Source of the DNA: Candidatus Lindowbacteria bacterium RIFCSPLOWO2_12_FULL_62_27
GTDB lineage: Bacteria > Lindowbacteria > 2-12-FULL-62-27
Assembly: GCA_001784175.1 (NCBI GenBank)
Contig: MFPR01000040.1
Coordinates: 1 to 44,954, forward strand
Direction of reading: 5' to 3'
Length of the DNA stretch: 44,954 nt
The notes under the pieces: generated by a model
Seen by the model: the letters and a program-made list of their open reading frames with translations, nothing else
Told to the model about the DNA's origin: nothing
Database searches by the model: none
Translations under genes and position numbers: made by a program
Shown: one piece after another, positions 1-38,944 of the stretch
Layout: every line of letters starts with the position of its first letter
Position numbering within the stretch: the stretch's first letter is position 1

Positions 1-3000
1 TATTACGATCGTGTCCTCGACGCCCCCGCCTCGCACGATCACCGTCGTACGCGTGTCCACGTTCGAGCCGCGCACGATCAGGACGACCTTCGAAGATCGT
101 GGCAGCACCGTGTCGCCGCCGGCGGCTACCGCGATTGCCTTGCCTGCCGTGTCGGCGCCGTTCACGCTCACCTGCCCGCCGCTGCGCACGCTCTTGTTGC
201 CGACGGCGTCTGTCGCCGTCGCGTAGATCACATTGTCGCCCTGCGACAGAGTCACGGTCGTCGTCCATTCGCCTGTCGTCGCGCTCGCCGTCACTGTGCC
301 CTTGTCCGTGCCGTTCACGTTCACCGTTACGGTCGCGCCCAGTTCCGCAATGCCGGCCACGGTCTGCGTCGTGGCGGACACCGCAAGGTTGTCCGGGCTG
401 GTAATGCGTGGCGTCGGCGGCGCCGTCAGGTCCGCGACCACCGTCAGTTCCGCCGATACGACGTCGTTGACGGTCGGGTCCTGCGCGATCAACTTCACTT
501 TGTACGTCCCCTCCGTCGCGTAGGAGCCCGTGTCGGTCCGGCCGTTCCACGTGAAGGTGTAGGTGTCGGCGGCGCTGGGTTTGGTCACGTCCGAATCGGC
601 CCGGATCGTCCGGACGATCGAGTCGGACGAATTCAATACCTGCAGCGTCAGGAGGGCCGCCTTGGTCGTGCTGAATGACACGATTGTCTCGTCCTTCACG
701 CCGTCCCCGTTCGGGCTGATCCGCGTCTCCGTTACGGCGAAATTGACGATCTGAAGCACCGCGCTCTGCGCGCGCAACGCCGCTGTCTTGATCTCCAGAT
801 TGCCCGACAGGTCCTGCACGGTGACCTTCACGTCGTAATCGCCGTCGGCAATGCCGCTGGGGCCGGCCGTCGCCGTGTAGTCGCCCGAGCCGGCAAAGGG
901 CGGCTGGTAGACCAGGTCCTGAACTTTCGCGCCGTCTTTCTTGAACAACTCCACCCGCATGTTGCCGCCGGGCTTGGTCCGCAATTCAAAATCGAAGTTC
1001 GAGGCCAGCGCGGCGTTCGAAAACTGGCCGCTGACGCCGGTCACGGTCGCGAATTCCGTGTTCACGTCGTATACCGTGTTGACCGGGTCCGACGACGACA
1101 GCGTGACGGGCGCCGACTGGATGGTGGCGCCGGTGGCGTCCGTGCCGTTGACCTGCAGCGTCAGGCTCTGGTTGCTGATCTTCGTCTTGACGAACTGCAG
1201 CTTCGACGGTTTCGACGGGTTCACCGGCCCGAAGAGCGGCGTCATGCTTCCAAAGGCGTCCCCGGCGTTGTGGAAGAAGTTGATCCGCTCGAGGAGTTCG
1301 GAGCTTTCGACGTTTGACACGGTGACGGTGATGGTCGCGATGTCGTTGAGGTTGTCGTTGTTGGGGGAAAACGGGTTCGGCGTGACGCCGGTGATGACCA
1401 CCGTCGGCAGGATCGTGTCGAGAATGACCTGGCCCAGCTTCTGTTTCGTCTGATTCCCGCTTACGTCCGTTGCCGTGATCCAGACATCGTAGGTGTTGTC
1501 CGCCACGCCGCCGTCCCACTCGAATTTCACCTGGCCGCCGATGCGCAGCGCGCCCACCGACACCGTGTCCAGCGCGTTCTCGGGACCCGCCGCGCCCGCC
1601 GACGTGATTACGATGGTGCAGTAGGCGTTCTCCGACAAAAGAAACAGGATGTGGGCTGTGTCGTTCACGCCGTCGCCGTTGGGCGAGAAGGGATTCGGCA
1701 TGATTGAAGCGTCCGAAACGTTGGGCGAGATGATGTCGGTCGCGCCGGTGTCGTACAAGACCGTGATCGTGTCCATGGCTACGGAAACGTTTCCGGCCGA
1801 ATCGATCGCGCGCGATACGATGTAGACCACGGTCTCGCCGTACGCGCCGCTCACGCCGAGCTTGGTCCAGTTGATGTAATAGGACCACGCGGTCGTCCCG
1901 GTGGCCGTGTCAAAGGACAGCGCGCCGCCCGCGCCGCCGGTGTCCAGGCCGATTTCGACCCGCACCACGCTGGAGGTCGTGTCGCTTGATTTGCCGGACA
2001 TCGTGAAGTTCAAGTTGAACTGCTTGTTCGTGGCCGGGAACAGGATCAAGGCACTCGGCGGGGTGGTGTCGAAGGTGAATTTCCGGGTGAAGGTCCCCGA
2101 ATTGCCGGCTTTGTCCTTGCGCGTCACGCTGATCTCGTACTGGCCGTCCTCGGAGGCCGTGTCCAGGGGGTTCGACAGCGTCAGAATCACCGAATCGCCG
2201 CTCGAAGTCTGCGTGGCCGAGATCAACGCCACGCCCTTCGTCAAGGTCACGATCGACGACACGCCGTCCACGCCGGAAAAACTGTCCACCAGCGCCACCA
2301 CGAAACTGTCGATCCGTACGTTGAAGAGTTCGGCCTCGGTGATGTTGTCGGTCGTGCCGTTCCGCAGGATGTTCGCCACCAGGGGTGCGGTCGCGTCGAA
2401 GACGATGGCCGTCGTCTCCTCCGTCATCACGTTGCCGCCCTTGTCCCCCGCGCGGATGTTTACGCGGTAGACGCCGTCCGATCCGCCCGTCTTGGTCAGC
2501 GGGCTGATCAGCGTGAGGGTGGCGGCGGACACGCCGTCGTTGGTCATCGTGCCCTGCAGCACATTGCCGCCGGCGTCCAACAGTCGGATGAGAACGCTGT
2601 CAAAACTGATCCCCGCGCCCACTTCGGTGAACGTCGCCTGGATCTGCGTCACCGTGTCGGTCACTGTCGTGTCCACGGCGGTGACGGTGTCGGCGCCTGC
2701 CAAAAGCGTCGTGCGCGCCGGCGCCTGCTGGTCGAAGACGAATCCGCGGCGCTCCACTTTCTGGTTGCCGGCCGCGTCCAGGGCGGCTACGGTGATGTCG
2801 TAGGCGCCGGATGCGGGCGTCGAATCGGTGAGCCGGAAGACCAGGAGAGAATCGCCGGCGTTGCTGAGCGAGCCGCCGATGGTCTGGCCGGTCGTCAGGT
2901 TCGTCAGCGTGATGACGCTGGCGCCCAGGCTGACGCCGCCGCGGTACTTGAATCCCAGCTCGCCCGCCGTCTGGCTCGAGGAATCCGTCATCTGTACGGC

Positions 3001-3867
3001 CACGGTCTCGATCGTCGCGCCGGCGCCGAAGAGCCGGCCCTCCGAGATCGAGTCGCCGCCGCCCTGGTTGTTCACCCAGAAAAATCCGTCGATGACGCTC
3101 GGGCCTACGCTGTCCACCACAAAAGAGTCCGTCAGCGTTGTCGTGTTGCCCGCGTTGTCCTGCGCCACCACATAGATGCCGTACACGCCGTCCTTCTTGC
3201 CGTCCCCCACGACGTCCAGCACCAGGTCCATCGTGATCTGGTCGCCCGGCGTCGGGCCGTTGTTGGTCAGCGTGACGCCCTGATTGACGGCCTCGGGATT
3301 GACGAGGCGCGCGCCGCCGGTGGTCGCGTTGATGTTCAGGCCGGCGTTCTGCCCGGTTGTGCCCGGATCGACCAGCTTGACCTTGACCTTGCCGATGCCT
3401 GTCCTGACCGTCGAATCAAAACTCGAGATGATCTTCGTCGTCGCCGCCTGGCCGGGCTTTGTGTCTGATTCGACCGACAGCCAGTCCGTCGTCGTGAAGG
3501 CTGGCGGCGTGGCGTCGTAGACGAATTTGTCCGTTGTGCCGACGGCCTGCGTGTTGCCGGCGTTGTCCACGGCGGACGCCGAGATCGTGTATTCGCCCTC
3601 GCCGCCGCCCACGAGCGTGCTGTTCGGAATCCGCACCTGCCACGTGTCGAACCCGCCGCCCGATACGGAGGTGTCGATCGAGCCGCCGGCGTCCGTCGTC
3701 TTCGCCGTCGTCACCGACCCGTTCGGCGCTGTCACCTGCACGTCCACCCGAACGAGACCCCCGGTCTTGCCGGCCGGCGTGCTTCGGCCGATCACCACGA
3801 GGTTCTCCGAGGCGCTCTGCACGCTCTTGCCGTTGAACGGCTTCGCCTGGCTGCTCAGCTCCTCCTT
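1..3867 (-). repeat. Long repeat unit 6, B-type, truncated by window edge
   Basis: Starts at the KEELSSQAKP anchor at 3,867. The middle is B-type, with NPFSPNGDGVND (near 1,690), NPFSPNNDNLND (near 1,370) and ISPNGDGVKDE (near 710). One cysteine codon lies at 1,620-1,618. The first bases of the window align with position 4,051 in the preceding junction, which places the next anchor about 180 bases beyond the edge and implies that the array continues. Confidence 0.8.
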
Positions 3868-6800
3868 GACCGTCGTGATCGTCGTCACGGGCGCGGCGTT
3901 GTCCAGCCGGAAAAAGACGAATTGATCGTCCGCACGGACCTCCAGCGACAGGCCGGTCGCGTCGCTGTCGCCGGACTTGACGCCGATCGTGTCCAGCCGC
4001 GTGAAATCGATCGGTCCGACCACGGACTGGCCGATCAGCGTTCCTGTATCTATGACGATCGTGTCCTCAAGACCGCCGCCCCGCACGATCACCGTCGTCC
4101 GCGTGTCCACGTTCGAACCGCGCACGATCAGCGCGACTTTGCTCGCGCGCGGCAGTACTGTGTCGCCGCCGGCGGACACCGCGATCGCCTTGCCCGCCGT
4201 GTCGACGCCGTTCACGCCGACCTCCCCGCCGCTCCGCACGCTCTTGTTACCGACCGCGTCCGTCGCCGTGGCGTAGACGACGTTGTCGCCCTGCACGATC
4301 CCCACGGTCGCGCTCCACGCGCCGGTCGTCGCGTTCGACGTGACGGTGGCGACGTCCGATCCGTTGACGTTGACGGTGACAAGCGCGCCGGCTTCGACCG
4401 AACCGCTGATGGTCTGGCCGGCGGCGGAAGTCGCGAGGTTGTCGGGCGTGAAAATCTGCGGGGGCGCGGGGCGCTCATTGTCGAGGGTGACGTTGCCGCT
4501 GGCGGTCAGGATCTGGCCGTTGCCGCCGTCGATGGCCGTGACTTTCCAGTAGTATGTCTTCGTCGCGTTCGGGCTTAGGATGCCGCCGGTGTCGGTCTTG
4601 CCCCGGAAGATGAACGACTTCGACGCCGGAAAGACGTTGACGGTCACGCTGTCGTTGAAGACCGCGGTCGTGTCGCTCGGGTTCGCAAAGACTTGGAACA
4701 GCACCGTCGCGCTGTCCTTCGCGCCGTCCGACGTGAACCGGATGGTCGTGAAATCGTTCTGCGCGTCGCCGTTCTCGGGGCTGATGGTCGCCGGGGTGAT
4801 CGAAACGCCGGTCAGCGAGAACGGTGTGATGTCGATCTGCACTTCACTCGAGGCCTCCGACGTCAGGCCGTGCCCGTCCACCGCGGTCACCACGATCCGG
4901 TACAACCCGTCTGGAGGCGTCGGCGCGCCGGAACCGGTCCACGTCACGAGCGAGTCGGTCACGTCGCCCGGCACGTTGACCAGCGTCGCGATCAGCGCGC
5001 CCGTCGTCTTCGCGTAGACCTCCACCCGGCTGCTCACGGCGCTCACGGTCGTGTAGCGGATCGTCGTCACGTCGTCCTGGCCCGGGGTGGCGGGCGAGGG
5101 ACTGAACGGATTCGGAATGGGCGACTGCGTCAGCGTCAGCACGGGCGGCAGAACGTCCTTGATGCCTTTTACCGTCACGCTCGTCTTGTTGCCGCTCCGG
5201 TCGGTCACTCGTATTTCAAATGAGTAGGTGTCGTCCAGCACCAGGTTGCCGTTCACATCTTTTCCGTCCCACACGATCGCGTTCTGGCCCGCGCCCTGAG
5301 TCACACCGTTGGTCGGGACCGTGTCGATGAAGGTCCCGTCGCTGGACTTGATCACCACGAGCGCGGTGTCGACGGTTTCGTTCAATACATATTTGATGGC
5401 CGCGCCGGCCGCGCCGAACACCCCGGGATCGACCACGGCGTCGCTGATCTGCGGCGCCGTCACGTCGGTGATGCCGGTGTCGTACCGGATCGTCAGCGTG
5501 TCGCTGAGCGCGCCGGTGTTGCCGGCGGCGTCCACGGCGTAGGCGACGATCTTCCAGTCGCCCAGCGTGTCGCCGAGGAGCGTGAAGTTGATGGTGCCGA
5601 TCCAGGAGGCCGCGCCGGAGGCCTGGCTGTCCTGCTTCAGCTTCGTGATCTGGCCCATGTCGGTGTCCGGAACGTAGACCCGCACGAATACCTTCGCGAC
5701 GCTGCCGGTCGTGTCGCTCGCGGCGCCGGTCACGGCGATCGGCCCGATGTTGAACTGCGTGTTTTGCGCCGGCGTCACGATCCGAGCCTGCGGCAGGTCC
5801 TTGTCGAACACGAACGTCGCGGTTTCGCTCATGTAGTTGCCTGCCGCGTCAGCCGCCGTCACCACGATCGTACAGACGCCGACCTCCGACGCAAGGTCGA
5901 GGATGTTGCCCCCGCTCAGTTGCCGGCCCAGCGTGTCGGCGCCGGCCTCAAAGACCAACGTGCCGACTTTCTGGTTGGCCGCGTTGTAGAAGGTGAGGGT
6001 CGTGGTGTCGTTGTAGCCGGTGACGTCGGTGACCCGGCCGTTCGGGCTTGTCACGGTGTCCACGAGGTCGACGCCGGCGAACACGACGCTGTCATTGTAG
6101 GCCCGTGTCGCCACGTGGACGGTCTGCAGGCCCGATCCGGTCTTTGTCACCGGGATCGTTTCGGTCACGCTCGCGCTCGAGCCGTGGACCAGCACGAAAT
6201 CCTGCAGGGTGGGTTTCACCGTGTCATAGCGGAGAATGCGCGTGTCTTCTAGAATGTTGCCGGCGCGGTCTGTCACCCGCACCCACAGGGCATAATCGCC
6301 GTCCTGCGTGCCGCCGGTCGCGCGGCCCAAGCTGAGCGAGCTCACGTCGATCTGCGCGGCGACGCCGCTCGCGTTGAGGGACAGGGTCGTGGCCGGCTCG
6401 GTGAAGGCGCTGTCGCCGTTTTCATCCCAGATCCATTTGAGTTCCGGCGGCGTGTCGGAGCTGACGCCCGTGACCGTGTCGCCCACCCGGACGGTGATGC
6501 TGTCCAAGCGGTTCATCTTCGCGCCGGTGTCGGGCGAGATCGTGAAGAACGGCAGTTGCGCATCATATTTGAACGTCCGTTTCTCCGTCCGCTGGTTGCC
6601 CGACTGGTCAAAGGCCGTCACCTGCACCTCGAGGTCGCCGCTGATCGGGGTCGAGTCGGTCAGCCAGAAAATCACCAGCGAATCGCCGGCGCTGCTCACC
6701 ACGCCCGATACGCTCTGGCCCGTGGTCTTGTTCGTCGCGCTGATGGAACTGCCGGAGAGGTTGACGCCGCCGTTGAATTTGAAACCGAGGTCGGTCGTGA

Positions 6801-9800
6801 CCTGGCTCGACGAATCGGTGATCTGGACGACGATCGAGTCGATGACCTGCGTCGCGCCGAAAATCTGGCCCTCCGAGATGGTCGCGCCGCTGCCGCGCTC
6901 GTTCAGGTAAAAATTGCTCCCGACCACGGTCGGGCCCACGCTGTCGATCACGAAGGAGTCCCGCAGGGTCGCCGTGTTGCCCGCGTTGTCCGACACCACC
7001 ACCTGCACGCCGTAGACGCCGTCCTTCTTGCCGTCGCCCGCCACGTCGAACACCAGGTCCAGCGTGACTTCGTCGCCCGGCGTCGGGCCGTTGTTGCTCC
7101 GCACGATGCCGACGTTCGCGCCGGCCGGATCGATCAGACGCGCGCCGCTCGTCGTCGTGTTGATGTCGACGCCCGCGTTGTTCTGAGTCGTCACGGGCGG
7201 CGCGGGGTCGGCGAATTTCAGCTTCACCTTGCCCACGGCCGTGCGGACGGACGTGTCAAAACTCGTCAGCGTTTTTGAGCCGGCGGCCGTGTCGAGCACC
7301 ACGATCGCGGCGGTCGAGGCGAAGGCGGGGGCGGTCTGGTCCAGCGTGAAGGTGGACACGGTGGAACTGTCCAGGTTTCCGGCGTTGTCAATCGCCACCG
7401 CCACCACCTGATAATCTCCGTCGCCGCCCGCCACCAGCGTCGAGTTCAAAATCCGCGCTACCCATGTGTCAAACACCGCGCCCGCGTTCGTGTCCGGATT
7501 GTTGATCCCCGGAAACTCCGTCGTCTTCACCGTCACCGTCGTCTTGTTCGGCAGGGTCACCGTCACGTCGAGCCGGGCCAGCCCCCCCGTCACGCCGGCC
7601 GGATTGCTCCGGCCGATCACGAGGACGTCCTCCGTCGCGTCCAGCGTGCTCTTGCCGTTGAAGGGACTCACCTGGCCCGACGCCTCCTCCCGGATCGTCG
7701 TGATGCTCGGTTTCGGCGCCACATTGTCCAGCCGGAAAAATACGTATTGATCCTCTGCGCGCACCTCCACCTGCAGGCCGCTGGCGTCGCTGTCGCCTGA
7801 CTTCACCACAATCGTGTCCAGCCGCGAGAACTCGACGGTCCCCACCACTCGCTGGCCGATCGTCGTCCCCGTGTCGAGCACGATCGTGTCCTCCTGAGCG
7901 CCGCCCTTCACCACGACCACGGTCCGCGTGTCCACGGTCGACGCGCGCACGATCAGCACGACCTTGCTCGCGCGCGGCAGAACCGTGTCCGCGCCCGATT
8001 CGAGACCGATCCCCACGCCTACGGTGTCGCTCACACCCGCCAGATTCACCTGCCGGCCGCTCCGGACGCTCTTGTTGCCTACCGCGTCCGTCGCGGTCGC
8101 ATAGATCACGTTGTCCCCCTGCGCGTTCGACACCGTCGCGCTCCATAACCCGGTCGACGCGTTCGCCGTCACGGTCCCCACGTCCGTCCCGTTCAGGTTC
8201 AGCGTCACGCTCGCGCCCGGATCCGCCGATCCGCTCACCGCCTGATTCGCCACGGACACCGCCAGATTGTCGGACGTGAAAATTTGCGGAGGCGCCGGCT
8301 TCGTAAAATCAACCACGATCGTGGTGTCGGACGTCACCACGTCGTTCAGCGTCGGATCCAGCGCGCTCAGCTTCGCCCGGTACGTTCCTTCCGTCACCAC
8401 AAGGCCGGCATCGCTCTTGCCGTTCCACGTAAACGCGTACGGCCCCGCCGCGCTTGGCTGGGTGGCGAGGGTGTCGGATTTCAGCGTGCGGACCACGGAA
8501 TCGGCCGCATTGAGGATCTGGAGCGTCAGGAGCGCCGGTTTCGTCGTCGTAAACGATATGATCGATTCGTCCTTGATGAAATCGCCGTTCGGGCTGATCC
8601 GGCCTTCCGTGACGGCGAAAAAGTTGATCTGCAGCCGGGACGAGGCGGCCGTCACATCGGCCTTCTCCACGGTCACGTTCCCGCTGTTGTCCTGCGCACG
8701 CACCACCAGCACGTAGACCCCGTCCGACAGCGTGGTGGAGCCTTGCGGGAAGGTCACAAAATACGTTCCGTCGCCTTTGAAGACGGGACTGAACGTCAGA
8801 TTGTCCTGTCCGGAAATTACATTTCCGGACGGATCCTCCGCGCGGACGGTCACGGCGCCTTCCGATGAAAACACGATGATGGGAATGCCGGTTTTGCCGT
8901 CCCAGGCGGTCTGGCTGGCGCCCGTGACGGACGCGACGGAGATGGCGTCGATTTTGGAGAATTTCTGGCTCGTCGAAATCGTGCCGTTCGCCGGCAGGGA
9001 CACCGTCGGGTTGATGCTGTTGCCGTTTTCATCAATGCCGACCACCTGGATGTTCACATCTCCGTTGGCGGGCATCTGCCCGGACCCTACAAAAAAGACG
9101 CGGGCCGGCGAAACCAGCGTCCGGGGCAGGGTGAAATTGCCGGTGGTTCCGAGGTTGGTCGAACCTTGCTGGGTGGCCAGATCGGACACGGACAGCGTTC
9201 CGATATCCTCGCCCTGGACGCCGGCGACGGAAAACGTCATGGTGGTCGCGTCGTTGATGTTGTCGTTGTTGGGCGAAAACGGGCTGGGCGAAATGCTCGT
9301 GATGGTCACGACGGGCAGAATCGTGTCGAGCCGGATCCGGCCCAGTTTTTGCGTGATCTGATTGCGGCTCGCGTCCACCGTCACGATCCAGATGTCATAC
9401 GTGTTGTCGAGCAGCCCGCCGTCCCAGGAGAACTTGACCAGGCCCGCGGATTTGGACACGTTGACGGCAATCGTATCGAGGGCGTTTTTGAGGTCGGTGG
9501 AGAGCGTGCTCAGGACCAGCAGGGTGCAGGAGGCGTTTTCGGACAGGACAAAGACAATATCCGCGGTGTCGTTGACGCCGTCGCCGTTCGGAGAGAACGG
9601 GTTGGGGGTAATGGAGACATTCGACACATAGGGAGGCGTGATGTCCGAGGCGCCGGTGTCGTAGAAGATCGTGAGGGTGTCGGCGGGAACCTCCGCATTG
9701 CCGGCCGCATCGACCGCACGGGTGACAAGGATGACAAAGGTTTCTCCGTATTGCGACTTCACGCCCAGTTTGGACCAGTCGATGAAGTACGACCAGTTCT

Positions 9801-12800
9801 GCGCGCCGGTGGCGGTGTCAAACTGCAGGACACCGCCGGCGCCGCCCGTATCAAACCCGATTTCGACCCGGCTGATCGATGAGGTCGTGTCCCGCGCGGT
9901 TCCCGAAATGGTGATGTTGGAGTTGAATTTCTGGTTGCTCGATGGATAGACGAACGCGGAGGAAGGCGCGGTCGTGTCAAACGTGAATGTGCGCGTGAAG
10001 GTGCCGGAATTGCCGGCGCGGTCCTTCCGCGTGATGCTGAGGATATAGGGGCCGTCCTCGGGGGTGGTGTCCAGCGGGTTGCTCAACGCCAGGATCACGG
10101 AATCGCCGGCCGTCGTCTGCGTGGCCGTGAGCGTCGTCACGCCTTTCGTGAGCGTCACGATGGCCGACAGGCCGTCCACGCCGGAAAAACTGTCGACGAG
10201 CTGGACGACAAAACTGTCCACCCGGACGTTCAGGATCCGGCTGTCCGTGATGTCGTCCGGCTGGCCGTTGCGCAGAATGCTTAAAACCGCCGGCGGCGTC
10301 ACGTCGTACATGATCGTCGTCGTCTCCTCCGTCATCACGTTGTTCGCCTGGTCGGCGGCCCGGATGTTCACGCGGTAAATGCCGTCCGAGCCGCCGGTTT
10401 TCGAAAGCGTGGTGACCAGCGTGAGGGTCGCGGCGGACACGCCGTCGTTGGACATCGTGCCCTGCAGGGCGTTGTTGTTCGCGTCAACCAGCCGGATCAC
10501 CACGCTGTCGAAACTCAGGCCGGAACCGACTTCGGTGAAGGTCACTTTCACCGCCGACACCGTGTCCGTCACGATGGTGTCCGAAACGGTGACCGTCTCC
10601 GATCCCACGATCAGGGCGGTCCGGGACGGCGCCTGCTGGTCGAAGGTGAAGCCTCGCTTTTCCGTCTTCTGATTGCCGGCCAGATCGAACGCGGCCACCA
10701 GAATCTCGTAGACGCCGGAGGCGGGGGTCGAATCGGCCAATTGGAAAATCAAGAGCGAATCGGTCACGCTCGACAGCGTCCCGCCGGCGCTCTGGTTCGT
10801 CGTCTTGTTCGTCAGCGTGATCAAACTGGCGGCCAGACTCACGCCGCCGCGGTATTTGAATCCCAGATCGCCCGCCACCTGGCTCGACGAATCGGTGAGC
10901 TGGACCGCGATTGTCTCGATCGTCGCGCCCGGGCCGAACAGCCGGCCCTCCGCGATCGAGTCGCCGCCGCCCTGGTTGTTCACCCAGAAAAACCCGCCAA
11001 CCACGCTCGGTCCCACGCTGTCCACCACAAACGAGTCCGTCAGCGTCGTCGTGTTCCCCGCGTTGTCTTGCGCCACGACGTACACGCCGTACACGCCGTC
11101 CTTGCGGCCGTCGCCCGCTACGTCGAACACCAGGTCCATCGTCACTTCGTCCACCGCGTTGTTGCTCAAGGTCGATCCGATGTTCGACCCCGCCGGGTCC
11201 ACCAGCCGGGCGCCGGTCGTCGTCGCGCTGATACTGAGCTGCGAAACCTGCACGGTGCCCGGGTCCGTCATCTTCACCTTGACCTTCCCGACCCCCGTCC
11301 GCACGGTCGTGTCAAAGCTGGAGAGGGTCTTGGACGGGATGGCGCCGACCCCCGTGTCCGCCGTGACGTCGATCGCCCCCACGCTGACGAAGGCCGGCGG
11401 GGTGGCGTCATAAATGAATTTGTCCGAGGCCGGGAGCGGCTGCGTGTTGCCTGCGTTGTCCACGGCCGCGGCGGTGATCGTGTATTCCCCCTCGCCGCCG
11501 CCTTGCAGCGTGCTGTTCGGAATCCGGACCTGCCACGTGTCGTAGCCGCCGCCGGAGACGCTGGTGTCGATGGACCCGCCCGCGTCTGTCGTCTTGACGG
11601 TCGTCACCGATCCGTTCGGCGCGGTCACGGTCACGTCGACGCGCACGAGGCCGCCGGTCTTGCCGGCCGGAGTGCTCCGGCCAAGAACGAGTATGTTTTC
11701 AGACGCGCTCTGCACGCTCTTGGCGTTGAACGGCCGGACTTGCCCGGAGAGTTCCTCTTTCTGCGTCGTGATCGTCGTCACGGGCGCGGCGTTGTCCAGC
11801 CGGAAAAAGACGAATTGATCGTCCGCGCGGACCTCCAGCGAAAGACCGGTCGCGTCGCTGTCGCCGGACTTGACGCCGATCGTGTCCAGCCGCGTGAAAT
11901 CGACCGATCCGACCACCGACTGGCCGATCAGCGTTCCTGTATCTATGACGATCGTGTCCTCGACGCCCCCGCCTCGCACGATCACGGTCGTCCGCGTGTC
12001 CACGTTCGAACCGCGCACGATCAGAACGACTTTCGAAGCACGCGGCAGCACCGTGTCCCCGTTCGATTCGATGCCGATCTGCACGCCCGTGTCGCTCACG
12101 CCTGCCATGCTCACCTGCCGGCCGCTCCGAACGCTCCGGTTTCCGACCGTGTCCACCGTTATTCCATATATAATGTTGTCCCCCTGGGACAGGCTCACGG
12201 TCGCCGTCCACAGGCCGTTGATCAGGTTCGCTGTCACTGTGCCCGCGTCCACGCCGTTTACGTTCAGAACCACCTGCGACCCCGGCTCCGCCTGGCCGGT
12301 CACCGTCTGGAGTCCCGCCGACACCGCCGCGTTGTCCGACGTGAAAATCTGCGGCGCGGCCGGACGCAGGTTGTCGATCTCCACGCTGCCGCCGGCCGTC
12401 AGGACATGCCCGTTGCCGTCCACCGCCGTGACTTTCCAGTAATGGGTCTTCGTCGCCTTCACGCTCAAAACCGCGCCGGTGTCGGTCTTGCCCCGGAACG
12501 TGAACGTCTTGACGGCCGGAAAGACGTTGACGGTCACGCTGTCGTTGAATACCGCGATCGTGTCGCTCGGGTTCGCGAATACCTGGAACCGGATCGTCGC
12601 GCTGTCCTTTGCGCCGTTCGCCGTGAAGCTGATGATCGAAAAATCGCTCAGGCCGTCCGCGTTCTCCGGGCTGATCACCGTCGGGCTGATCGCGACGCCC
12701 GTCAGTGTGAACGGCGTGCGGTCGATCTCCACTTCGCTCGATACCTCCGACGTCAGGCCATGCCCGTCCACGGCGGTCACCACCAGCCGGTACAGACCGT

Positions 12801-15800
12801 CCGACTGGCCGCTGCCGTCCCATACGACCTGCGTGTCCGTCGCGTCACCCGACACCGTCGCGCCCGTGATGCCTGCCGGCACGAGCGTCGCCACGAGTAT
12901 CCCCGACGACTTCGCAAATACATCCACCCGGCTGCTTACGGCGCCTACGGTCGTGTACCGGATCGTCGTTACGTCGTCTTCGCCGGGCGTCACACCGGGA
13001 CTGAATGGGTTCGGAATCGCCGATTGGGTGAGCGTCAGGATCGGCGGAAGAACGTCCTTGATCCCGCTCACCGTCACAATAGACTTGTTGCCGCTCCGGT
13101 CCGTTACGGTGATCGCAAACGTGTAGGTGTCGTCCAGCACAAGATTGCCGTTCACATCTTTTCCGTCCCACCCAACCGCGTTCTGGCCCGCGCCCTGCGC
13201 GATCCCCACGAACGGGACGGTGTCCACGGCCGCGCCGGCGCTGGTCTTGATCACCACGAACGCGGTGTCCGCGCTTTCGCTCAATACATATTTGATGGTC
13301 GCGCCGTTCGCGCCGAATACCCCCGGATCGACCGTCGCGTCGCTGATGACCGGCGGCGTCACGTCCGTGATCGACGTGTCGTACCGGATCGTCAGCGTGT
13401 CCGCCAGCACGCTCGTGTTGCCCGCCGCGTCCACTGCATACGCCACGATCTGCCAGTCGCCCAGCGTGTCGCCAAGCTGCGTGAAGTTCACCGTGCCGAC
13501 CCAGCTCGCGGTCCCGGTCACGGCGCTGTCCTGTTTCTGTTTCCGGACCTGCCCGAAGGCCGTGTCCGGCACGTACACGCGCATGTAGACCCGCGCCACG
13601 CTCCCCGTCGTGTCGCTGGCTGCGCCCGTCACCGCGATGGGGCCGATGTTGAACTGCGCGTTCTGCGCCGGCGACTGGATCTTCACCTGCGGGTTGTCCT
13701 TGTCGAAGACGAAGGTCGCGGTCTCGCTCATGAAATTCCCCACGGCGTCTACGGCGGTCACCACGATCGTGCACACGCCTGCCTCGATCGCGGCGTCCAG
13801 AATGTTGCCGCCCACGAGACGCCGCCCCATCGTGTCGGCGATCGCTTCGAATTCGAACGTGCCGACCTTCTGGTTCGACGCGTTGTAGAAGGTCACGGTG
13901 GTCGTCTCGTTGTACGCCGCAACGTCCGTCACACGGCCGTTCGGGCTGGGCGAGCTGTCCGCAAGGTCCACGCCGACGAAGATGACGCTGTCGCTGTAGG
14001 CGCGCGTCGCCACAAAAACCGTGCGGCCCTGCGTGTCGGTCACGGCGGTGACCGGCATCGTTTCCGTGATGCTCGCGCTCGTGCCGTGCACGATCAGAAA
14101 ATCGATCCGCGTCGGCTTCACCGTGTCGTACCGCACGATCCGCGTGTCCTCCACGACGTTGCCGGCCTTGTCCACCACGCGCACCCACAGCGCATAGTCG
14201 CCGTCCTGCGTGCCGTTCGTGACCCGGCCCAGCGATGTGACGCTGGTGTCGATCTGGCCGGCCGTCCCGCTCGCGTTCAGCGTGATTGGTGTCGCCGGCT
14301 CGGTGAAGAGGCTGTCGCCGTTTTCGTCCCAGATCCACCGAAGCTGCGGCGGCGTGTCCGTACTCACGCCCGTGATCGTGTCCCCCACGCTCACGAGGAT
14401 GTTGTCCAGCCGGCTGGTCTTTGCGCCGGTGTCCGGCGCGATCGTGAAGAACGGCGCCTGCGCGTCGTATTTGAAGGTCCGCTTCTCCGTCCGCTGGTTG
14501 CCGCCCTGGTCAAAGGCCGTCACCTGGACCTCGAACTCGCCGCTCACCGGCGTCGAATCTGTCAGCCAGAAAATCAGAAGAGAATCGCCGGCGGAACTCA
14601 CCAGTCCCGCCACGCTCTGGCCGGTCGTCTTGTTCGTCATCGCTATGGAAGTCGCGGGCAGATTCACGCCGCCGCTGAAGCCGAATCCGAGATCGCTCGA
14701 CACCTGGCTCGACGAGTCCGTGAGCTGCACCACAATCGAGTCGATGGCGCTGGTCGCGTTGAATATCTGGCCCTCCGAGATCGTCGAACCGCCGCCTCGA
14801 TTGTTCAGATAATAATTGCTCCCGACTACCGCCGGGCCCACGCTGTCGATCACGAAAGAATCGGTCAGGACCGCCGTGTTGCCCGCGTTGTCCGACGCCG
14901 CGATGTAGACGCCGTAGACCCCGTCCTTCCGGCCGTCCGTCGCAACGTCGAAGACCAGGTCCATCGTGATCTGGTCGCCCGGCGTCGGCGCGTTGTTGCT
15001 CCGCACAATCCCCACGTTCGCGCCCTTCGGGTCCACCAGGCGGGATCCGCCGGTCGTCACGTTCAGGTCCAGGCCCGCGTTCTTCTGACTGGCATCCGGC
15101 GCCGCCGGATCGCTCAACGTCACCCGCACGGCGCCGACCGCCGTCCGCACGGTCGTGTCGAAATTCGTCAGCGTCTTCGAGCCTGTGCCGGTGTCGAGCA
15201 CGATGATTTTTCCGGTGGTCGCGAACGTCGGCGAGGTCTGGTCCAGCGTGAAGGTGAATGCCGCCGCGGTGGCCTTGTTGCCGGCGCCGTCGAACGCGTC
15301 GGCCACGAGCGTGTAATCGCCGTCGCCGCCGGCCAGAAGCGTCGAGTTCGGGATGCGCACGATCCACGTGTCGTATGCGCCGCCCGATACGGCCGTGTCC
15401 GGATTGCCGGCCCCGGTGAAATCGGTCGTGCTCACCTTCGTGGTCGTCGCCTGGTTCGGATACGTGATCGTCACGTCCACACGCGCGAGACCGCCGGTCG
15501 CGCCCGCCGGGGTGCTTCGGCCCGTCACCAGCACGTTCTCCGACGCGCTCTGCGCGCTCTTGCCGTTGAAGGGACTCGACTGGCCCGACAGCTCCTCCTT
15601 CGCGCTTACGATGGTCGGGACCGGCGCGACGTTGTCAAGACGGTAAAACACGAACTGGTCGTCCGCGCGGACCTCCACACTCAGCCCGATCGCGTCGCTG
15701 TCGCCGCTCTTGACGCTGATCGTGTCCAGCCGCGCAAATTCGACGCTGCCGGCCACCCGCTGGCCGACCTGCGTGCCCGTGTCGATCACGATCGTGTCCT

Positions 15801-18800
15801 CCAGCGCGCCGCTGCGCACGATCACCGTCGTCCGCGTGTCCACGGTCGAGCCGCGCACGATCAGGACGGCCTTCGAAGGACGCGGCAACACCGAGTCGCC
15901 GCCCGATTCGATCCCGATCGACACGCCGCCTGTGTCGCCCACGCCCGTCAGCGTCACCTGCCGGCCGCTTCGCACGCTCTTGTTGCCCGCCGAGTCGGAG
16001 GCCGTCGCGTAGATCACGTTGTCGCCCTGCGCAAGCTGCGCCAGCGTGACGGCCGCGGTCCACAGGCCGGTCTGCAAATTGGCCGTGACCGGCGGCTGAA
16101 GGTCCGTGCCGTTCAGGTTCAGCGTGATCTGCGCGCCGGGCTCCGCGGAGCCGCTCACGGCCTGGTTCGTGGTGGTGACCGCCAGATTGTCCGACGTGAA
16201 AATCTGCGGGGGCGCGGGCCGGCTGTTGTCGATGTCCAGGTTGCCGCTCGCGGTCAGGATCTGGCCGTTGCCGCCGTCCACCGCCGTCAGTTTCCAGGAG
16301 TATGTTTTCGTCGCGCCGCCGCTCAGGATGCCGCCGGTGTCGCTCTTGCCGCGGAACGTGAACGTCTTCGTCGCCGGAAAGACGTTGACGGTCACACTGT
16401 CCGTAAAGACGGCGGTGGTGTCGGTCGGATTTGCGAACACCTGAAACCGCATCGTCGCGCTGTCCTTCGCGCCGTTGACCACGTAGCTGAGCGTCGCAAA
16501 ATCCGAAACGCCGTCGGCGTTCTCGGGACTGAGCAGCGTCGGCACGAGAAGCACGTTCGTCAGGGAAAACGGCGTGACGTCGATCTCGACTTCGCTCGAG
16601 ACCTCCGCCGTCAGGCCGTTGACGTCCACCGCCGTCACTACGATCCGGTACAACCCGTCCGGCGGCGTCGGCGCGCCCGCGCCGTCCCACGTGACCGGCG
16701 TGTCCGCGATGTCCCCGAACCGCGCCGCGATCTGCCGCACGAATGCCCCGGTCGACTTCGCGTATACGTCCACTCGGCTCGTCACGGCGCCGATCGTCGT
16801 GTACCGCAGCGTCGTTGCGTCGTCCTCGCCGGGCGTCACCGGCGCCGGGCTGAAGGGGTTCGGGATCGGGGACTGCGACAGCGTCACCACGGGAGGCACC
16901 ACGTCCCGCACGCCGCTGACCGTGATCGTGGCGCGATTCCGGTTCCGGTCCGTCACTTGGATCTCGAAAAAGTAGGTGTCGTCCGCCACGAGGTTGCCGC
17001 TCGCATCTTTTCCGTCCCACACGATCGCGTTCTGGCCCGCGCTCTGAGGCGTGCCGTTGGTCGGCGCGGTGTCGACGAAGACGCCGCCGCTCGTCTTGAT
17101 CACCACGAGCCCCGTGTCGATCGGCTCATTCACGACATATCGTATCGTTGCGCCGCCCGCGCCGAACACGCCCGGGTCCACCGTCGCGTCGCTGATCTGC
17201 GGCGCCGTTACGTCCGTGATCGTCGTGTCGTACCGGATCGTCCGCGTGTCCGACAGCGCGCTCGTGTTGCCGGCGTCGTCCACGGCGTAGGCCACGACCT
17301 GCCAGTCGCCCGGCGTGTCGCCGAGAAGGACGAAATTCACCGAGCCGACCCAGCTCGCGGACCCGATCGCCAGGCTGTCCTGTTTCTGTTTCCGGATCTG
17401 CCCGAAGGCCGTGTCCGGGACGTACACGCGCATGAACACCCGCGCCACCTTGCCGGTCGTGTCGCTTGCCACGCCCGTGATGGCGATGGGGCCCACGTTG
17501 AACTGTGCGTTTTGCGCCGGGGTCACGATCCGGATCTGCGGGGCGTCCTTATCGAATATGAAGGTCGCGGTCTCGGCCATGAAGTTCCCTGCGGCGTCGA
17601 CCGCCATCACCACGATCGTGCAGACGCCCGCCTCGGCGGCGGCGTCCAGAATGTTGCCGCCCACGAGTCGCCTCCCCATCGTGTCTGTCGCGGTGTCGAA
17701 TTCGAATGTGCCGATGGCTTGGCCGGCGGCGTTGACGAAGACCACCCGCGTCGTGTCATTGTAGGCCGAAACGTCCGTCACCTTCCCGTTCGGGCTTGGC
17801 GCGCTGTCCAGAAGGTCCACGCCCACGAAAGTGACGCTGTCGCCGAAGGTCTTCGTCGCCACAAATACCGTCCGGCCCTGCGTGTCGGTCAACGCCGTCA
17901 CCGGCAGCGTCTCCATCACGCTCGCGGACGCGCCGTGCTCGACCAGAAAATTCACCCGGGTCGGCCGGACCGTGTCGTACTTCACGATCTTCGTGTCCTC
18001 CGTTACGTTGCCCGCCTTGTCCACCACGCGCACCCACAGGAGGTAGTCGCCGTCCTGCGTTCCGTTCGTGACGCGGCCCAAGGACAGCGTGTTCGTGTCG
18101 ATCTGGCCCGCAACGCCGCTGGCGTTCAGCGTGATGAGCGTCGCCGGCTCATTGAATATGTTGTCGCCGTTTTCGTCCCAGATCCACCGAAGCTGCGCTG
18201 CGCTCACGCCCGTGATTGTGTCGCCCACACGCACCACCACGTTGTCCAGGCGGTTCACGATCGCGCCGGTCTCCGGTGACTGCGCGTAAAAAGGACCCTG
18301 CGCGTCGTATTTGAAAGACCGCTTCGTGATCCGCTGGTTGCCCGACCGGTCGAAGGCCGTGACTTGGATTTCGATGTCGCCGCTGACCGGGGTCGAGTCC
18401 GTGAGCTGGAACATCAGGAGCGAATCGCTCACCGTCCGGATCACGCCGCCGATGCTCTGCAGGGTCGTCTTGTTCGTCATGTTGAGCGAGCTGGCCGTCA
18501 GATTCACGCCGCCGTTGTAGAGGAATCCCAGATCGCCCGCCGTCTGGCTCGAGGAATCCGTCAGATACACGGCCACGGAATCGAAGAAGTCCGAGCCGCT
18601 GAAAACTTGGCCCTCCGTGATCACTGTGAAACCGCCCGGATTGTTGATCCGGTAAAAATTGTCGCCGATCACGCTCGGTCCCACGGCGTCGATCACGAAG
18701 GAATCGACGGCCGTGTCGCTGTTGCCCGCCTTGTCGCTCACCACCACATAGATGCCGTAAACGCCGTCACGCTTGCCGTCCGACGTGATGTCGAATACCA

Positions 18801-21800
18801 GGTCCATCGTGACCTCGTCGACGTTGTTGTTCGCGCGTACGATGCCGACGTCCGCGCCCTGCGGGTCCACCAGGCGCGCGCCCGACGTCGTCAGGTTCAG
18901 GTCCAGTCCCGAGTTTGACTGGCCCGAAACCGGCGCGGCCGGGTCGGTGAACCGCACTTTCACTTTCCCGACGCCGGTCCTCACCGCCGTGTCGAACGTG
19001 GTCAGCGTCTTCGTCGGCAGGTTGGTGGCGCTCGGGCCTGTATCCGCTTCGACCACGATTTTGTTGGTGGCCGAAAATTGCGGCGAGGTCTGGTCGAAGG
19101 TGAACGTCAGGGCCGGCGACGTATCCTGGTTGCCCGCGTTGTCGATCGTCGTCGCCTCCAGCTTGTAGTCGCCGTCGCCGCCCGCGATCAGCGTTGCGTT
19201 CGGGATGCGCACAATCCACGTGTCAAACGCGCCGGCGTTCGTGTCCGGATTGCCCTTCGTCGCGGGAAAATCCGTCGTGCTGACCTTCGACTTCGTGCCG
19301 TTCGGCAGCGTGATCGTCAGGTCCACGCGCACAAGGCCGCCGGTCACGCCGGGCGGGGAACTGCGGCCGATCACCAGAACGTCCTCCGTCGGGTCCTGCG
19401 CGCTCTTGCCGTTGATCGGACTTTGCTGGCCGCTCGCCTCTTCCCGCACGGTCGTGATCGTCGCGTCGGGCGCCGAGACGTCCAGCCGGAAAAAGAGGTA
19501 TTGATCCTCGGCGCGGATTTCAACGCTCAGGCCCGCCGGGTCGCTGTCCCCCGTCTTCACGCCGATCGTGTCCAGCCGCGTCATGTCGAGGTTGCCTACG
19601 ACCCGCTGGCCCACGAGTGTGCCGGTGTCCAGCGTGATCGTGTCGTCCAGCCCGCCCCCGCGGAGGATGACGGCCATCTGTGAGTCCACGTTCGAACCGC
19701 GGATGATCAACACGGCCTTGCTCGCGCGCGGCAATGCCGGGTCCCCGTTCGATTCCACGCCGATCGACACGCCGTTCTGACCCACACCGTTCAGGCTCAC
19801 CTGCTGGCCGCTCCGGACGCTCCGGTTGCCCGTCGAGTCGACGGCCGTCGCGTAGATGATGTTGTCGCCCTGCACGATGTTCACCGTCGTCGTCCACTGG
19901 CCGGTCGCCGGGTTGGAGGTTACCGGCGCCAGGTCCACGCCGTTGACGGTCAACACCACCTGGGCGCCCGGCTCCGCCGAGCCGTTCACGGTCTGCGTCG
20001 CCACCGATACCGCAAGGTTGTCCGGCGTCACGATCTGCGGCGGGACCGGCCGCAGGTTGTCGATGGTCACGTTGCCGCTCGCCGTAAGAACCTGGCCGTT
20101 TGTGCCGTCGATGCCCGTGACTTTCCAGTAATAGGTGCGCACGGCCTTCGAACTCAAAATCCCGCCGGTGTCGGTCTTGCCCCGGAACGTGAATGTTTTG
20201 GAGGCCGGAAAGACGTTCACCACCAGGCTGTCGTTGTAGACGGCGGCGGTGTCCGACGGGTTGGTGAACACCTGAAAGAGGACCGTCGCCGAATCCTTGA
20301 CGCCGTCCACCCGGTAGCTGATGACTGTGAAATCGTTCACGCCGTCGCCGTTTTCCGGGCTGATCACCGTCGGGTTGATCGCAACGCCCGTCAGCGTGAA
20401 CGGCGTCACGTCGATCTCGACCTCGTTGGAGACCTGCGCCGTCAGGCCATTTCCATCCACGGCCGTCACCACGATGCGGTACAAGCCGTCCGGAGGCGTC
20501 GGCGCGCCGCCGCCGTTCCACTGCACGATCGTGTCGGTGACGTCGCCCAGCACCGTGGCCGAAATCGACACGAGGGCGCCCGTGGTCTTGGCGTATATTT
20601 CCACCCGGCTGTTCGCGGCGCCCACGGTCGTGTACCGGATCGTCGTCACATCGTCCTGGCCCGGGGTCGTGGGCGCGGGGCTGAACGGATTGGGAATCGG
20701 CGATTGCGTGAGCGTGATGACCGGCGGCACCTGGTCCTTGATGCCCTTCACTGTCACGTTCGCCTTGTTGCCGCTCTTGTCTGTCACGCGAATCTCGAAA
20801 CTGTAGGTGTCGTCAAGAACAATATTGCCGCTCGCGTCCCGGCCGTCCCACACGATCGCGTTCTGGCCGGCGCCCTGCGGCAGGCCCGCCGAGGTCGGAA
20901 TGGTGTCGACCGCGGCGCCGCCGCTCGTCGTGATCACCACGAACGCGGTGTCGACGGCTTCGCTTAATACATATTTTATGGCGGCCCCGTTCGCGCCGAA
21001 CACGGCGGGATCGACCACGGCGTCGCTGATCACCGGCGCCGTCACGTCCGTGATCCCCGTGTCGTACCGGATCGTCAGCGTGTCGCTGAGCGCGCCCGTG
21101 TTGCCGGCGGCGTCCACGGCATAGGCCACGATCTTCCAGTCGCCCAGCGTGTCCCCCAGTTGGGCGAAATTGAGCGTTCCCAGCCAGGAGGCCGCGCCGG
21201 ACGCCAGACTGTCCATCCGCGCCACCGCTTCCGAAGCGCCGAAGTCGGTCCCCGGAACGTATACCCGCATGTAGACCCGCGCCACGCTTCCCGTCGTGTC
21301 GCTCGCGGTGCCGGTCACCGCGATCGGGCCGATGTTGAACTGCGACCCCTGGGGCGGCGTCACGATCTTGACCTGCGGGTTGTCCTTGTCGAACACGAAC
21401 GTCGCGGTCTCCGCCATGAAGTTCCCCGCGGCGTCCACGGCCGTCACCACGATCGTGCATACGCCGGCTTCGTTCGCCGCGTCCAGAATGTTGCCGCCCA
21501 CCAGCCGCCGGCCCATCGTGTCGGCCACGGGCTCGAATTCGAATGAGCCGACTTTCTGGTTCGACGCGTTGTAGAAAAATACGACGGTCGTCTCGTTGTA
21601 TTTGGCGATGTCGCTCACTCGGCCGTTTGGATTCAGCACGGTGTCGAACATGTCCACGCCGGCAAACACGATGCTGTCGCTGATCGCGCTCGTCGCCACG
21701 AAAATCGTCTGGCCCTGCGCGTTGAGCGTGGCGGTCACCGGAATCGTCGAGAAAACGCCCCCGGAGCCGCGCTGCACCAGAAAATCCTGGCGCGTCGGTT

Positions 21801-24800
21801 TCACCGTGTCGTACCGCACGATCTTCGTGTCCTCAAAGACGTTGCCGCCCTTGTCCACCACCCGCACCCACAGCGCGTAGTCCCCGTCGGCCGAACCGTT
21901 CGTCGGCCGGCCCAGGCTGAGGTTGCTCGTGTCGATCTGGCCGGGATTGCCGCTCGCGTTCAGGGAGAGGAGCGTCACCGCCTCCGTGAACTGGCTGTCC
22001 CCGTTGTCGTCCCAGATCCACCGGAGTTCCGCGCTGGTCAGGCCGGTCACCGTGTCGCCCACACGAACCACGATGTTGTCCAGGCGGTTCACCACGGCGC
22101 CGGTGTCGGGCGTGATCGAGAAAAACGGCGCCTGCGCGTCGTACCGGAACGTCCGCTTCTCCGTGCGCTGGTTGCCGAACTGGTCGAAGGCCGATACCTG
22201 GACCTCGAAATCGCCGCTGCTGGCCGGGGTCGAATCGCTCAGCCAGAAGATCAAGAGCGAGTCGCCGGCGGAACTTACCACGCCCGCGATGCTCTGGAGC
22301 GTCGTCTTGTTCGTTACGCTGATGGAACTCGCCGCCATGTTCACGCCGCCGCTGAACCGGAATCCGATGTCGCTCGAGTTCTGGCTCGAGGAGTCCGTCA
22401 ACAGAACTGCGATGGTGTCGATGAAGGTCGTCGCGTTGAAGACTTGGCCCTCGGCGATGACCTCGGTGCCGCCCCGGTTGTTCACATAAAATACGCCGCC
22501 GATTACGCTCGGGCCGACGTTGTCCACTACGAAGGAATCCGTCAGCGTCGTCGTGTTGCCCGCGTTGTCCTGGGCCACGAGATAGACGCCGTACACCCCG
22601 TCCCGCTTGCCGTCACTGCCCACCTTGAACACCAGATCCATCGCCACTTCGTCCACGCCGTTGTTGCTCCGCACGATTCCCACCGCCGCGCCTGCCGGGT
22701 CCGCCAGGCGCGCGCCGATCGTCGTCTGGTTCAGGTTCAGGCCCGCGATCTGGTTCGCGGTCCCCGGATCCTGCGTCCGCACGCGCACCTTGCCCACCGA
22801 CGACCGCACCGAGGTGTCGAAGGCCGACAGGACCTTGGAACCGGCCGCGGTGTCGTCCACCGTGATCGCGCCGGCCGCGATGAATTGCGGCGGGGACACG
22901 TCATAGATGAAACTGGATGCAATGGACTGCGAATTGCCCGCGTTGTCCGCCGTCGCTACCGTGAGCTGGTAAATCCCCTCGCCGCCGCCCACGAGAACGG
23001 AATTCACAATACGCACCTGCCACGTGTCAAACGTCGAACTTGAGGTCGTGTCCAGAAGCCCCCCGGCGTCGGCGGTCGTTACGGTCGTCACCGCTCCGTT
23101 CGGCGCGCGCACCGTCACGTCCACACGCACGAGGCCCGCCGCCGCGCCCGCCGGCGCGCTCCGGCCCGATACCTGCACGTCCTCCGCCGATACGCCCGGG
23201 CTACGGCCGTTCAACGGGCTGACCTGGCCGCTCACTTCCTCCTTGATCGACGTGATGCTCGGCGCCGGCGCCGAAACGTCCACGTTGTACTGCACAAATT
23301 CCTCGTCCGCGCGCAGCGTCACCTCGATCGCCGAGTCGACGCCGTAGCCGGAAACGCCGCCCAGAAAGACCGTGTCGAACCGGTCGAACGTCTGGCCGCT
23401 CTGGGCCGCGATGAGACGGTTCACGGCCGCCTTTGTGTCCACCACCACGCTGTCCCGCACGATGCTGCCCGCAAGCGACCCCCACACCTGCAGGACGGTC
23501 TGGGTGTCGGGCGCCTTGTTGATGAATATGTTTATCTTCGACACGCGCGGCAGCTTCAGATGCGTCGTGTCGGCGGAGATGCCCTTCGAATCGGTCGAGG
23601 TCCACGTGATCTTCGATCCGCTCGGCGTGGAAACGTTTCCGACGCCGTCCTTCGACTTCGCGTAGATGTTGTTGTAGCCCTGGACCAGCGGGACGGTCGC
23701 AAACGAAAACGTGCCGTTCGGCGAGGTCGCGATCGTCGTCAGGCCGAGGCTCGTCGCGTCCCGGAACAGCTCCACGGTCGAGCCGGCTTCCGCAATCCCG
23801 CTGATCGACGTCTGCGACACGTTCTGCGTCTTGTCCGCCTCCGTGATCCGCGGCGCGTCCGGCGACACCAAGTCGATCGTCGCCTTCGTGTCGAACGCGA
23901 TCGTCAGGTTGTCGTTCGGGTCGTAGGCCGTGATCTTGATGACGTAGTCCCGGCTCGTCACGAATACCCCCGAGTCGTTCTTGCCGTCCCACGTGACCGT
24001 GTAGGTGCCGGCGGCCCGCACCGACGTGTCGGCCACGATGGTGCGCACCGGAATGGTGTCGTCGGAGGTCTGGAAAATCTTGATGGCCAGTTGGGCCGAC
24101 TTCGTCGTCGTCGCCGCGATGAACAGCTCGTCCACCACGAAATCGCCGTTCGGGGAAATCGTCCCGTTCGTCGGCGTGAGCTGCACGTTCGTCACCTGCA
24201 ATATCGCCGTCTGGACGGTCACGGTCGTCTGGCTCTGCACGAAATTGCCGGCGTCGTCCACCACCTGCACCACGATGGTGTAGTCGCCGTCGGGGGTCGT
24301 TCCCGCGGCCGGCGCCCACTGCGAGGTGTAACTGCCGTTGCCCGTGAAGGCCGGGACGGTCGTCAGCGAACCCACCGAGGCGCCGGAGGCGTTCCGGACG
24401 TTGATCGCGATCTCGCCGGTCTTCGTGTACAGATCAAAGGATAAATCAAAACTCGTCGTCGAGGTGCCGCCCGGGCCCGTTACGCCCGTCACGCTGCCCC
24501 ACGTGCTCAGGATCGCGAGGATGTCGTTCGGCTGCGTCGTCGCCGGGATCGACACGGCATTGCCCGTCTGCGACGTGCCGTTCGCCGCCGTGCCCTGCAA
24601 CGACAGCGTGATCGCCGCGCTCCCCGAGGCCTGCTTCGCGATCCACACAAGCTCCGTCGGGCTCGGGATCGTGAACGGGCCCGACGTGAATACCGGCGCG
24701 TTCACGGTGAACGGCGACTGCGCGCCCGTGGCCGTGATCCGTACCGTGCCGATGAACGTGCTCGTCGGCAGGTTGCTCACCGAAAAGGACAGCGTCGTGC

Positions 24801-31239: not shown

Positions 31240-31245
31240 TGCCTT

Positions 31246-31295
31246 TCTCCCCCCTCCCCCCTTGTGGGGGAGGCTGGGTGGGGGGTTTTTGGGGT
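31246..31295. repeat. GC-rich palindromic element at the PLD/giant-gene junction
   Basis: On the plus strand, two C-runs (CCCCCCTCCCCC) are followed by TTGT and then GGGGGAGG, CTGGGTGGGGGG and TTTTTGGGG. On the transcribed-sense (minus) strand this gives a stem CCTCCCCC/GGGGGAGG with a short ACAAG loop. Its 3' arm runs into the G-rich ribosome-binding region of the giant gene. The four G-tracts on the plus strand also fit a quadruplex pattern. A related element is found at 41,529-41,560. Confidence 0.7.
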
Positions 31296-31313
31296 GTCTT
31301 TCATTGGGCTGTC

Positions 31314-37625: not shown

Positions 37626-37796
37626 CCTCTGTCCGGGCCTCCTCTGCGCGGTTCGGGTTCGTATGATTTCTAAGCTACCCCGCACTCCGTATGCGTTGCA
37701 ACGCCCACTGCCGTCTTCACTTTTTACCTTCCAAAGAACGTCGTTATCCATGAGACGAGATTATGTAGCGCCCAGAACAAGATACCACGGCCCCCA

Positions 37797-38129: not shown

Positions 38130-38840
38130 CTACAGCCCCGATTCCCTCTTCACCGCCTTCTCCACCATCTCCCTCACTCCTTTGTCGACCGCGAACACCA
38201 AATCCTCGTACTCGTCGCCCTTCTTCACGCTCGGCCACGCCATCCATATCCCATCCTTCCCATCAATCAGCTTGCATCCCTTGATCGTCACCGCATTGTT
38301 CAGCGTCACATCCGCAAATCCCTTCACTTTGCTGTGCCCATCCAGCTCCTTCCACCTGACTTCCGTCACCTTCAACGACCCAGGCTCCGCTCTCCCCTTC
38401 GCCCTCCCGTCTTTTATCGCATCCTTGATCTGCTTGGCTATGCTCTTATCCTCTAGAAACACAATATTATACTCCCTGCCGCCCTTCCCCGGACTCTTCG
38501 GAAAAAACAATAGCTCTCTTCCATCCTCCTCTCGTATCTCCAAGCCCTTGAAAACAATAGCCCTGTTTAGCGTTGCCGAATATTTGCCGCCCTTTTCCTT
38601 ACGAACCTCCGTAACCGCCAACTCACTCACCGGCTCATCCGATTTCGACTCCTTGCCCGCCGGCTCCCCCGCTTCCTCCTTGGCCTCCGGCTCTGCCGCC
38701 GGCTCCTCCGCAACGATTGTTTCTTTCTTGGCTGCCTGTTCTGTTTTACCGCAGGAAACCACAAACGGGACCAGACCGAAAGTTATTACAGTTATCGCTA
38801 CGACTGGTGAAAATTTCTTCAGCACGGAAAATTTTTTCAA
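38130..38840 (-). CDS. Lipoprotein with two tandem SpoVG-like domains
   Basis: A 236-residue protein. The start is a TTG at 38,840: AAGGAGG lies 8 bases upstream, and the TTG opens a clean lipoprotein signal (MKKFSVLKKF, hydrophobic stretch, lipobox VVSC with C30). Residues 31-72 are a Glu/Ala/Pro/Lys linker. Residues ~156-231 match the SpoVG family (LKVTEVRW, GFADVTLNNAVTIKGCKLID, GIWMAWPS, EYEDLVFAVD); residues ~74-145 are a second, more diverged copy (LAVTEVRKEKGGKYSATLNR, GRELLFFP, REYNIVFLED). SpoVG is normally a ~90-residue cytoplasmic DNA/RNA-binding regulator. A membrane-anchored, exported tandem form implies a different role, possibly binding another polymer or a partner protein. It is transcribed away from the plus-strand genes, from a promoter at 38,881-38,909, with a ~500-base gap before the PLD gene. 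Confidence 0.85.
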   Translation of the reverse strand: MKKFSVLKKFSPVVAITVITFGLVPFVVSCGKTEQAAKKETIVAEEPAAEPEAKEEAGEPAGKESKSDEPVSELAVTEVRKEKGGKYSATLNRAIVFKGLEIREEDGRELLFFPKSPGKGGREYNIVFLEDKSIAKQIKDAIKDGRAKGRAEPGSLKVTEVRWKELDGHSKVKGFADVTLNNAVTIKGCKLIDGKDGIWMAWPSVKKGDEYEDLVFAVDKGVREMVEKAVKRESGL

Positions 38841-38880
38841 GGGACGGACCTCCTTTTGTTGTATAATGGTACAGACCCCG

Positions 38881-38909
38881 ATTCTGATTCTTCTCCCTAA
38901 TAATGTCAA
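38881..38909 (-). promoter_or_regulatory. Sigma-70 promoter for the SpoVG-like lipoprotein
   Basis: Minus strand TTGACA (38,909-38,904), exactly 17 bases, CAGAAT (38,886-38,881). Predicted start near 38,874 gives a ~34-base leader containing the AAGGAGG ribosome-binding site. Confidence 0.55.
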
Positions 38910-38944
38910 GCTCTTTCGATTAAGAAATTCCATATACCTTTCCC

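Follow-up and report, generated by a model that had tools for sequence, protein, structure and literature searches.

Two fibrillar adhesins, SiiE and a large adhesion protein (structure 6xi3), are secreted by the type I pathway. Among the candidate phyla, V. archaeovorus LiM (Omnitrophota) carries an ORF of 39,678 aa (PMC10066038), and giant ORFs of candidate phyla reach 85,800 aa (cited in PMC12057145). Such ORFs resemble the locus described here, from a genome of Candidatus Lindowbacteria, in their tens of thousands of codons, their predicted surface products, their uncultured hosts and their few informative domains, whereas our locus stands apart by its regular Ig-like super-repeat, its VWA domains and its T9SS-like C-terminal tail. 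Its size is not a record and places it in the same class as the known giant ORFs. SiiE and the 6xi3 adhesin (PMC8286594, PMC9210967) have a chain of Ig-like stalk domains, adhesive domains and a membrane anchor, as is proposed here, and match our locus in fold, but the protein described here is far longer, and no RTX family, the feature looked for as a sign of type I secretion, was found in its C-terminal 3,977 aa. Periscope proteins (PMC8201768) are likewise long surface proteins whose reach could depend on the number of repeats; their tandem repeats are nearly identical to one another and show variation from strain to strain, whereas the modules studied here are mostly 60-93% identical (about 60-80% nt identity per module between most pairs of units) and come from one genome. 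The proteins Giant1-5 of Apilactobacillus kunkeei (PMC12863079) are surface proteins of very large size as well, and they too owe their diversity to recombination over short tracts within the gene; there the exchange runs between strains and genera, while here it is between units of one gene.

The window that we analysed is a stretch of 44,954 nucleotides located at the beginning of contig C40 of a 4.39-Mb genome (94% complete, 44 contigs). A giant frame starts at position 31317 on the minus strand and continues through 10,439 stop-free codons to base 1, where it runs off the contig. Its first 1905 aa form an N-terminal head, delimited in the ORF listing (25603..31317, minus strand), which is 71% identical over 900 aa to that of a sister genome and which has near its start, as read by eye in both genomes, a hydrophobic signal-like stretch with an AxA end. 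The upstream neighbour (31314..37751, minus strand) adjoins the giant gene and encodes a 2145-aa protein with a PLDc_2 domain and four fn3 domains detected by Pfam. A SpoVG domain is located at the C-terminus of a further window protein of 267 aa (38130-38933, minus strand).

Module HMMs built from the units showed that each unit is one recurring series of about 11 Ig-like modules, laid out as F5a-F5b-F5c, then A1-A6 or B1-B6, then F3a-F3b, on the minus strand throughout. The array opens with U0 (23263..25602), a partial B-type unit (B4-B6 and F3) without F5, which precedes the first anchor. The layout F5-A-F3 was found in U1 (19462..23262, anchor at 23244), U2 (15619..19461, anchor at 19446), U3 (11776..15618, anchor at 15600) and U5 (3883..7710, anchor at 7692). 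Unit U4 (7711..11775, anchor at 11760) is F5-B-F3, with its B middle at 10626-8296, and U6 (1..3882, anchor at 3867) is an F5-B unit interrupted within F3b by the contig end. The original prediction, made from the letters of the window, had placed six (K/R)EE-S-Q anchors at these positions, and exactly six are present in the minus-strand frame; its order of units, A-A-A-B-A-B, was reproduced by the HMMs, and the flank sizes agreed with it as well, at about 1.1 kb for F5 and 0.6 kb for F3. Since most module matches in the six window units scored 100-260 bits, chance is ruled out as the source of the units. An antisense ORF of 2512 aa (10741-18279, plus strand) overlaps the array; we took it to be a probable shadow of the coding strand, due to the high GC content.

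Among the 44 contigs of the genome, full units were found on a second one, C2, and on no third. Contigs C40 and C2 are each broken within the array and have the same orientation. The C2 frame is open on the minus strand from the contig end at 110684 to a stop adjoining 43827, and it contains a scaffold gap of 18 N bordered on both sides by an identical 11 bp; closing this gap gives a single frame of 22,276 codons that ends in the stop and carries the module series on, for about 20 units altogether. The two parts add up to 32,715 codons (about 98 kb), which is a minimum because the junction between C40 and C2 is a sequence gap, where at least about 510 residues (F3b to A1, by module positions) and perhaps whole units too are absent. 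The array of the window is best read as the opening third of one enormous gene split over the two contigs, an uninterrupted coding frame under selection of well over the 5,000 codons by which giant or huge proteins are recognised. The product of the two parts would have 32,715 residues, a mass of 3.41 MDa, a pI of 4.4 and 28 cysteines, and looks like an acidic, cysteine-poor chain of about 300 Ig-like modules resembling a surface filament.

The order of the modules over the whole protein is the head, U0 (B) and A-A-A-B-A-B on C40, then the gap, then on C2 the hybrid A unit V1 followed by four A units. Three VWA modules are inserted ahead of the A middle of V6, which is followed by a B unit and by a B unit with a short 5' flank. 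The hybrid V9 has A1-A4 and then B5, and is followed by B, B, A and A units, the B unit between V9 and V11 being read from the HMM table at a weak module score. Two more VWA modules, a final B-like series and the tail make up the C-terminal end. Pfam names the modules FlgD_ig, Big_13, Big_3, CHU_C and VWA. The Ig-like stalk repeats of a fibrillar adhesin are represented by Big_13, FlgD_ig and Big_3, all above their cut-offs and with beta-rich models, and its adhesive-type domain by VWA/VWA_2, far above the Pfam cut-off. The five VWA domains lie on C2 at about 90.0k, 85.8k, 83.2k, 50.7k and 48.0k; by reading of the sequence, the three central domains retain DxSxS or DxTxS, and the two near the C-terminus have DxTTG instead. 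The structure model of F3-F5 was almost wholly beta (pLDDT of 67) and that of the A middle was poorer (pLDDT of 56), both being of medium to low confidence. Among the solved structures that Foldseek matched best to the F3-F5 model are SiiE and 6xi3, the latter showing the extender repeats of a large adhesion protein.

A scan of named genomes gave a sole relative, JACQOF01 (MAG NC_groundwater_1274), which belongs to the same family and to another genus. Its contig C42 is colinear with C40 of the source genome, from the PLDc/fn3 gene (66% identical, in the same place directly upstream of the giant gene) through the head and U0 to F5, and the piece that follows F5 has its best match in C2 residues 1-114, at 77% identity, with a runner-up at about 50%. 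The sister ORF carries both C40-type and C2-type sequence, so that one gene in both lineages is the best reading, the junction of the C40 and C2 types falling in a sequence gap in the source genome and no sister contig spanning the whole. Residues 17251-22276 of C2 have a colinear counterpart on sister contig C6, which ends in the same C-terminus, and downstream of the giant gene both genomes have a PorV-like gene and then a ComEA-like gene, the latter label being read from the sequence. Full units are present in two of the three genomes of the phylum that were examined, the genus being represented by one genome. In the third genome, the PorV-like orthologue lies at a contig start (C157:3-704), where the giant gene is expected, and absence of the gene is therefore indistinguishable from an assembly break. 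A search of IMG/VR gave no relative.

Comparison of module profiles showed that A1-B1 pair with a probability of 97%, A3-B3 with 98%, A4-B4 with 98-99%, A6-B6 with 99%, and A2-B2 and A5-B5 with 84-92%. This module-by-module pairing, at 97-99% for four pairs, indicates that A and B are diverged forms of one middle and rules out that they are unrelated cassettes. The trees of the two flanks gave different results. In the F5 tree, the B units U4 and U6 were grouped together (98/99), apart from the A units, and forcing F5 to the F3 grouping cost 130-245 lnL units at the protein level and 109-200 at the DNA level (AU < 1e-4). In the F3 tree, U2 was the partner of U4, and U6 joined U5 and V2. Two F3 constraints were tested, U4 and U6 as a group and the same group plus V7; monophyly of U4 and U6 cost 24 lnL units on protein, and the rejection was modest, with an AU of 0.05 for this group, 0.03 with V7, and 0.03-0.06 over the tests. 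The original prediction had named flank trees discordant with middle trees as support for cassette exchange; the 3' flank was discordant, and the 5' flank was concordant with the A/B type. The 5' flank therefore moves together with the middle, and only the 3' flank is common to both types.

Recombination among the units is well supported. The PHI test on the eight A units gave a z of -15.4 for all sites and of -5.3 for third positions, and was significant at synonymous third positions (p = 0.002). The near twins U5 and V2, with 89-94% nt identity per module from F5c to F3a, are the only pair of units near 93%. A conversion patch was found in F3b, where U3 (11782..12066, minus strand) and U5 (4173-3889) are 91% identical at the nt level, compared with 64% in the adjacent F3a; at third positions the identity of this patch is 92% versus 54% overall (z = 10 over permutations). 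A similar result was obtained for V5 and V6, which are 91% identical in A3 and 64% and 76% identical in the neighbouring modules. Units U4 and U6 have 53-77% aa identity in B1-B4 and only 16-28% in B5, and the B5-B6 part of U6 matches the distant unit V11 on C2 (53-73% aa identity in B5). In the hybrid V1, A1-A2 are of the old type and A3-A6 of the recent type. The scaffold gap was rejected as the origin of this hybrid: the old-type sequence extends beyond the gap to the A2/A3 border, and the switch to the recent type thus sits in assembled sequence. The dS values among the A units were mostly 0.55-0.75 (0.31 for U5-V2) and that between the heads of the source and sister genomes was 1.04, which indicates, homogenisation being allowed for, that the array grew mostly after the split from the sister. 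Most of the duplications are old (dS of about 0.6), and the array, with a dN/dS of 0.18-0.43, is under purifying selection.

Three other explanations were weighed against these results. The predicted mosaic by intragenic recombination was upheld by the PHI test, the conversion patch and the discordant trees; its further claim, that flanks fixed at both ends act as recombination sites at which the A or B middle is swapped, varying the surface between strains, agrees with the F3 shared by A and B units and with the positive recombination tests, but we consider it unlikely. The trees and AU tests on F5, which splits A from B with high support, rule out fixed flanks at that end, so that constancy of both flanks did not hold. 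The breaks fall in F3 and within the middles, exchange within the middles being seen in U6 (B5-B6), V9 and V1. The duplications are old, moreover, and the comparison is limited to one strain. Tandem duplication and divergence only, with A and B as two old lineages and the patchiness due to unequal constraint or rate, would account for the match of A/B type between F5 and the middle and for the homology of the A and B middles; however, the significant PHI test at synonymous sites, the third-position signal of the U3-U5 patch, the peak of identity in A3 of V5-V6 and the hybrid units V1, V9 and U6 already disfavour this reading, which appears very improbable.

An assembly artefact, in which the order of the units would be a chimera and the mosaics spurious, both created by short-read assembly of repeats, from halves that are not one gene, is equally improbable. 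Both contigs do end within the array and C2 does have a scaffold gap, but exact repeats are no longer than 63 bp in the window part and 110 bp overall, the former making it unlikely that repeat collapse has scrambled the order of the units. The frame is continuous, and the sister genome shares the ends, the neighbours and an ORF bridging the two parts. The explanation that we favour, and consider rather probable, is a single giant gene encoding a fibrillar surface protein exported by the T9SS, whose array arose by duplication followed by exchange of modules among units. The array would have grown in this lineage by tandem duplication of one unit of about 1,280 aa, the divergence of A and B predating this growth, and tracts of one to several modules would then have been moved from unit to unit by gene conversion and by crossing-over out of register, leading to the A/B mosaic.

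The export route was examined in the same genome, where 29 Por_Secre_tail matches were found on contigs C6, C19, C28, C34, C24 and C14, several of them on other giant frames of 4,540-9,114 aa. Judging from these matches, the genome is rich in putative giant proteins of the T9SS type. It also has 22 PorV-family matches, nine of which are well above the cut-off, and one of the 22 lies directly downstream of the giant gene. The giant C-terminus matched the tail profile of the genome itself with an E-value of 3e-5 for 4,000 sequences; it scored 24.5 bits against CHU_C, for a cut-off of 27, and is not among the TIGR04183 matches. A SprA-like protein scored 70 bits for surface_SprA, for a cut-off of 200, and the search for SprA_N gave no match, its controls being equally silent. 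The giant protein is most likely a fibrillar adhesin exported by the T9SS. The product would leave the periplasm through this system, the C-terminal tail would hold it at the outer membrane with the aid of the PorV-family protein encoded adjacent, and it would form a stalk that extends outward by about 1 micrometre and bears five VWA domains as the adhesive parts. An Ig-like domain spans about 4 nm, and some 300 modules of about 112 residues each would reach about 1.2 micrometres.

A polypeptide of more than 33,000 residues (>3.4 MDa) from a little-known phylum, with type IX-like export, forming an adhesive or predatory filament on the micrometre scale, with a central array remodelled by module-scale recombination and a length that varies between strains, is a possibility that we put forward only tentatively. 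From a phylum of which three genomes were examined, the locus adds a near-record gene for which the order, the neighbours and a relative are available. Its regular units allow the growth of a giant gene to be traced, from duplications that followed the separation from the sister lineage to the subsequent exchange of one to several modules. SprB of Flavobacterium, a T9SS substrate, is about 6,500 aa long; if the export route proposed here is true, T9SS-like tails ride on proteins several times bigger than the known substrates.
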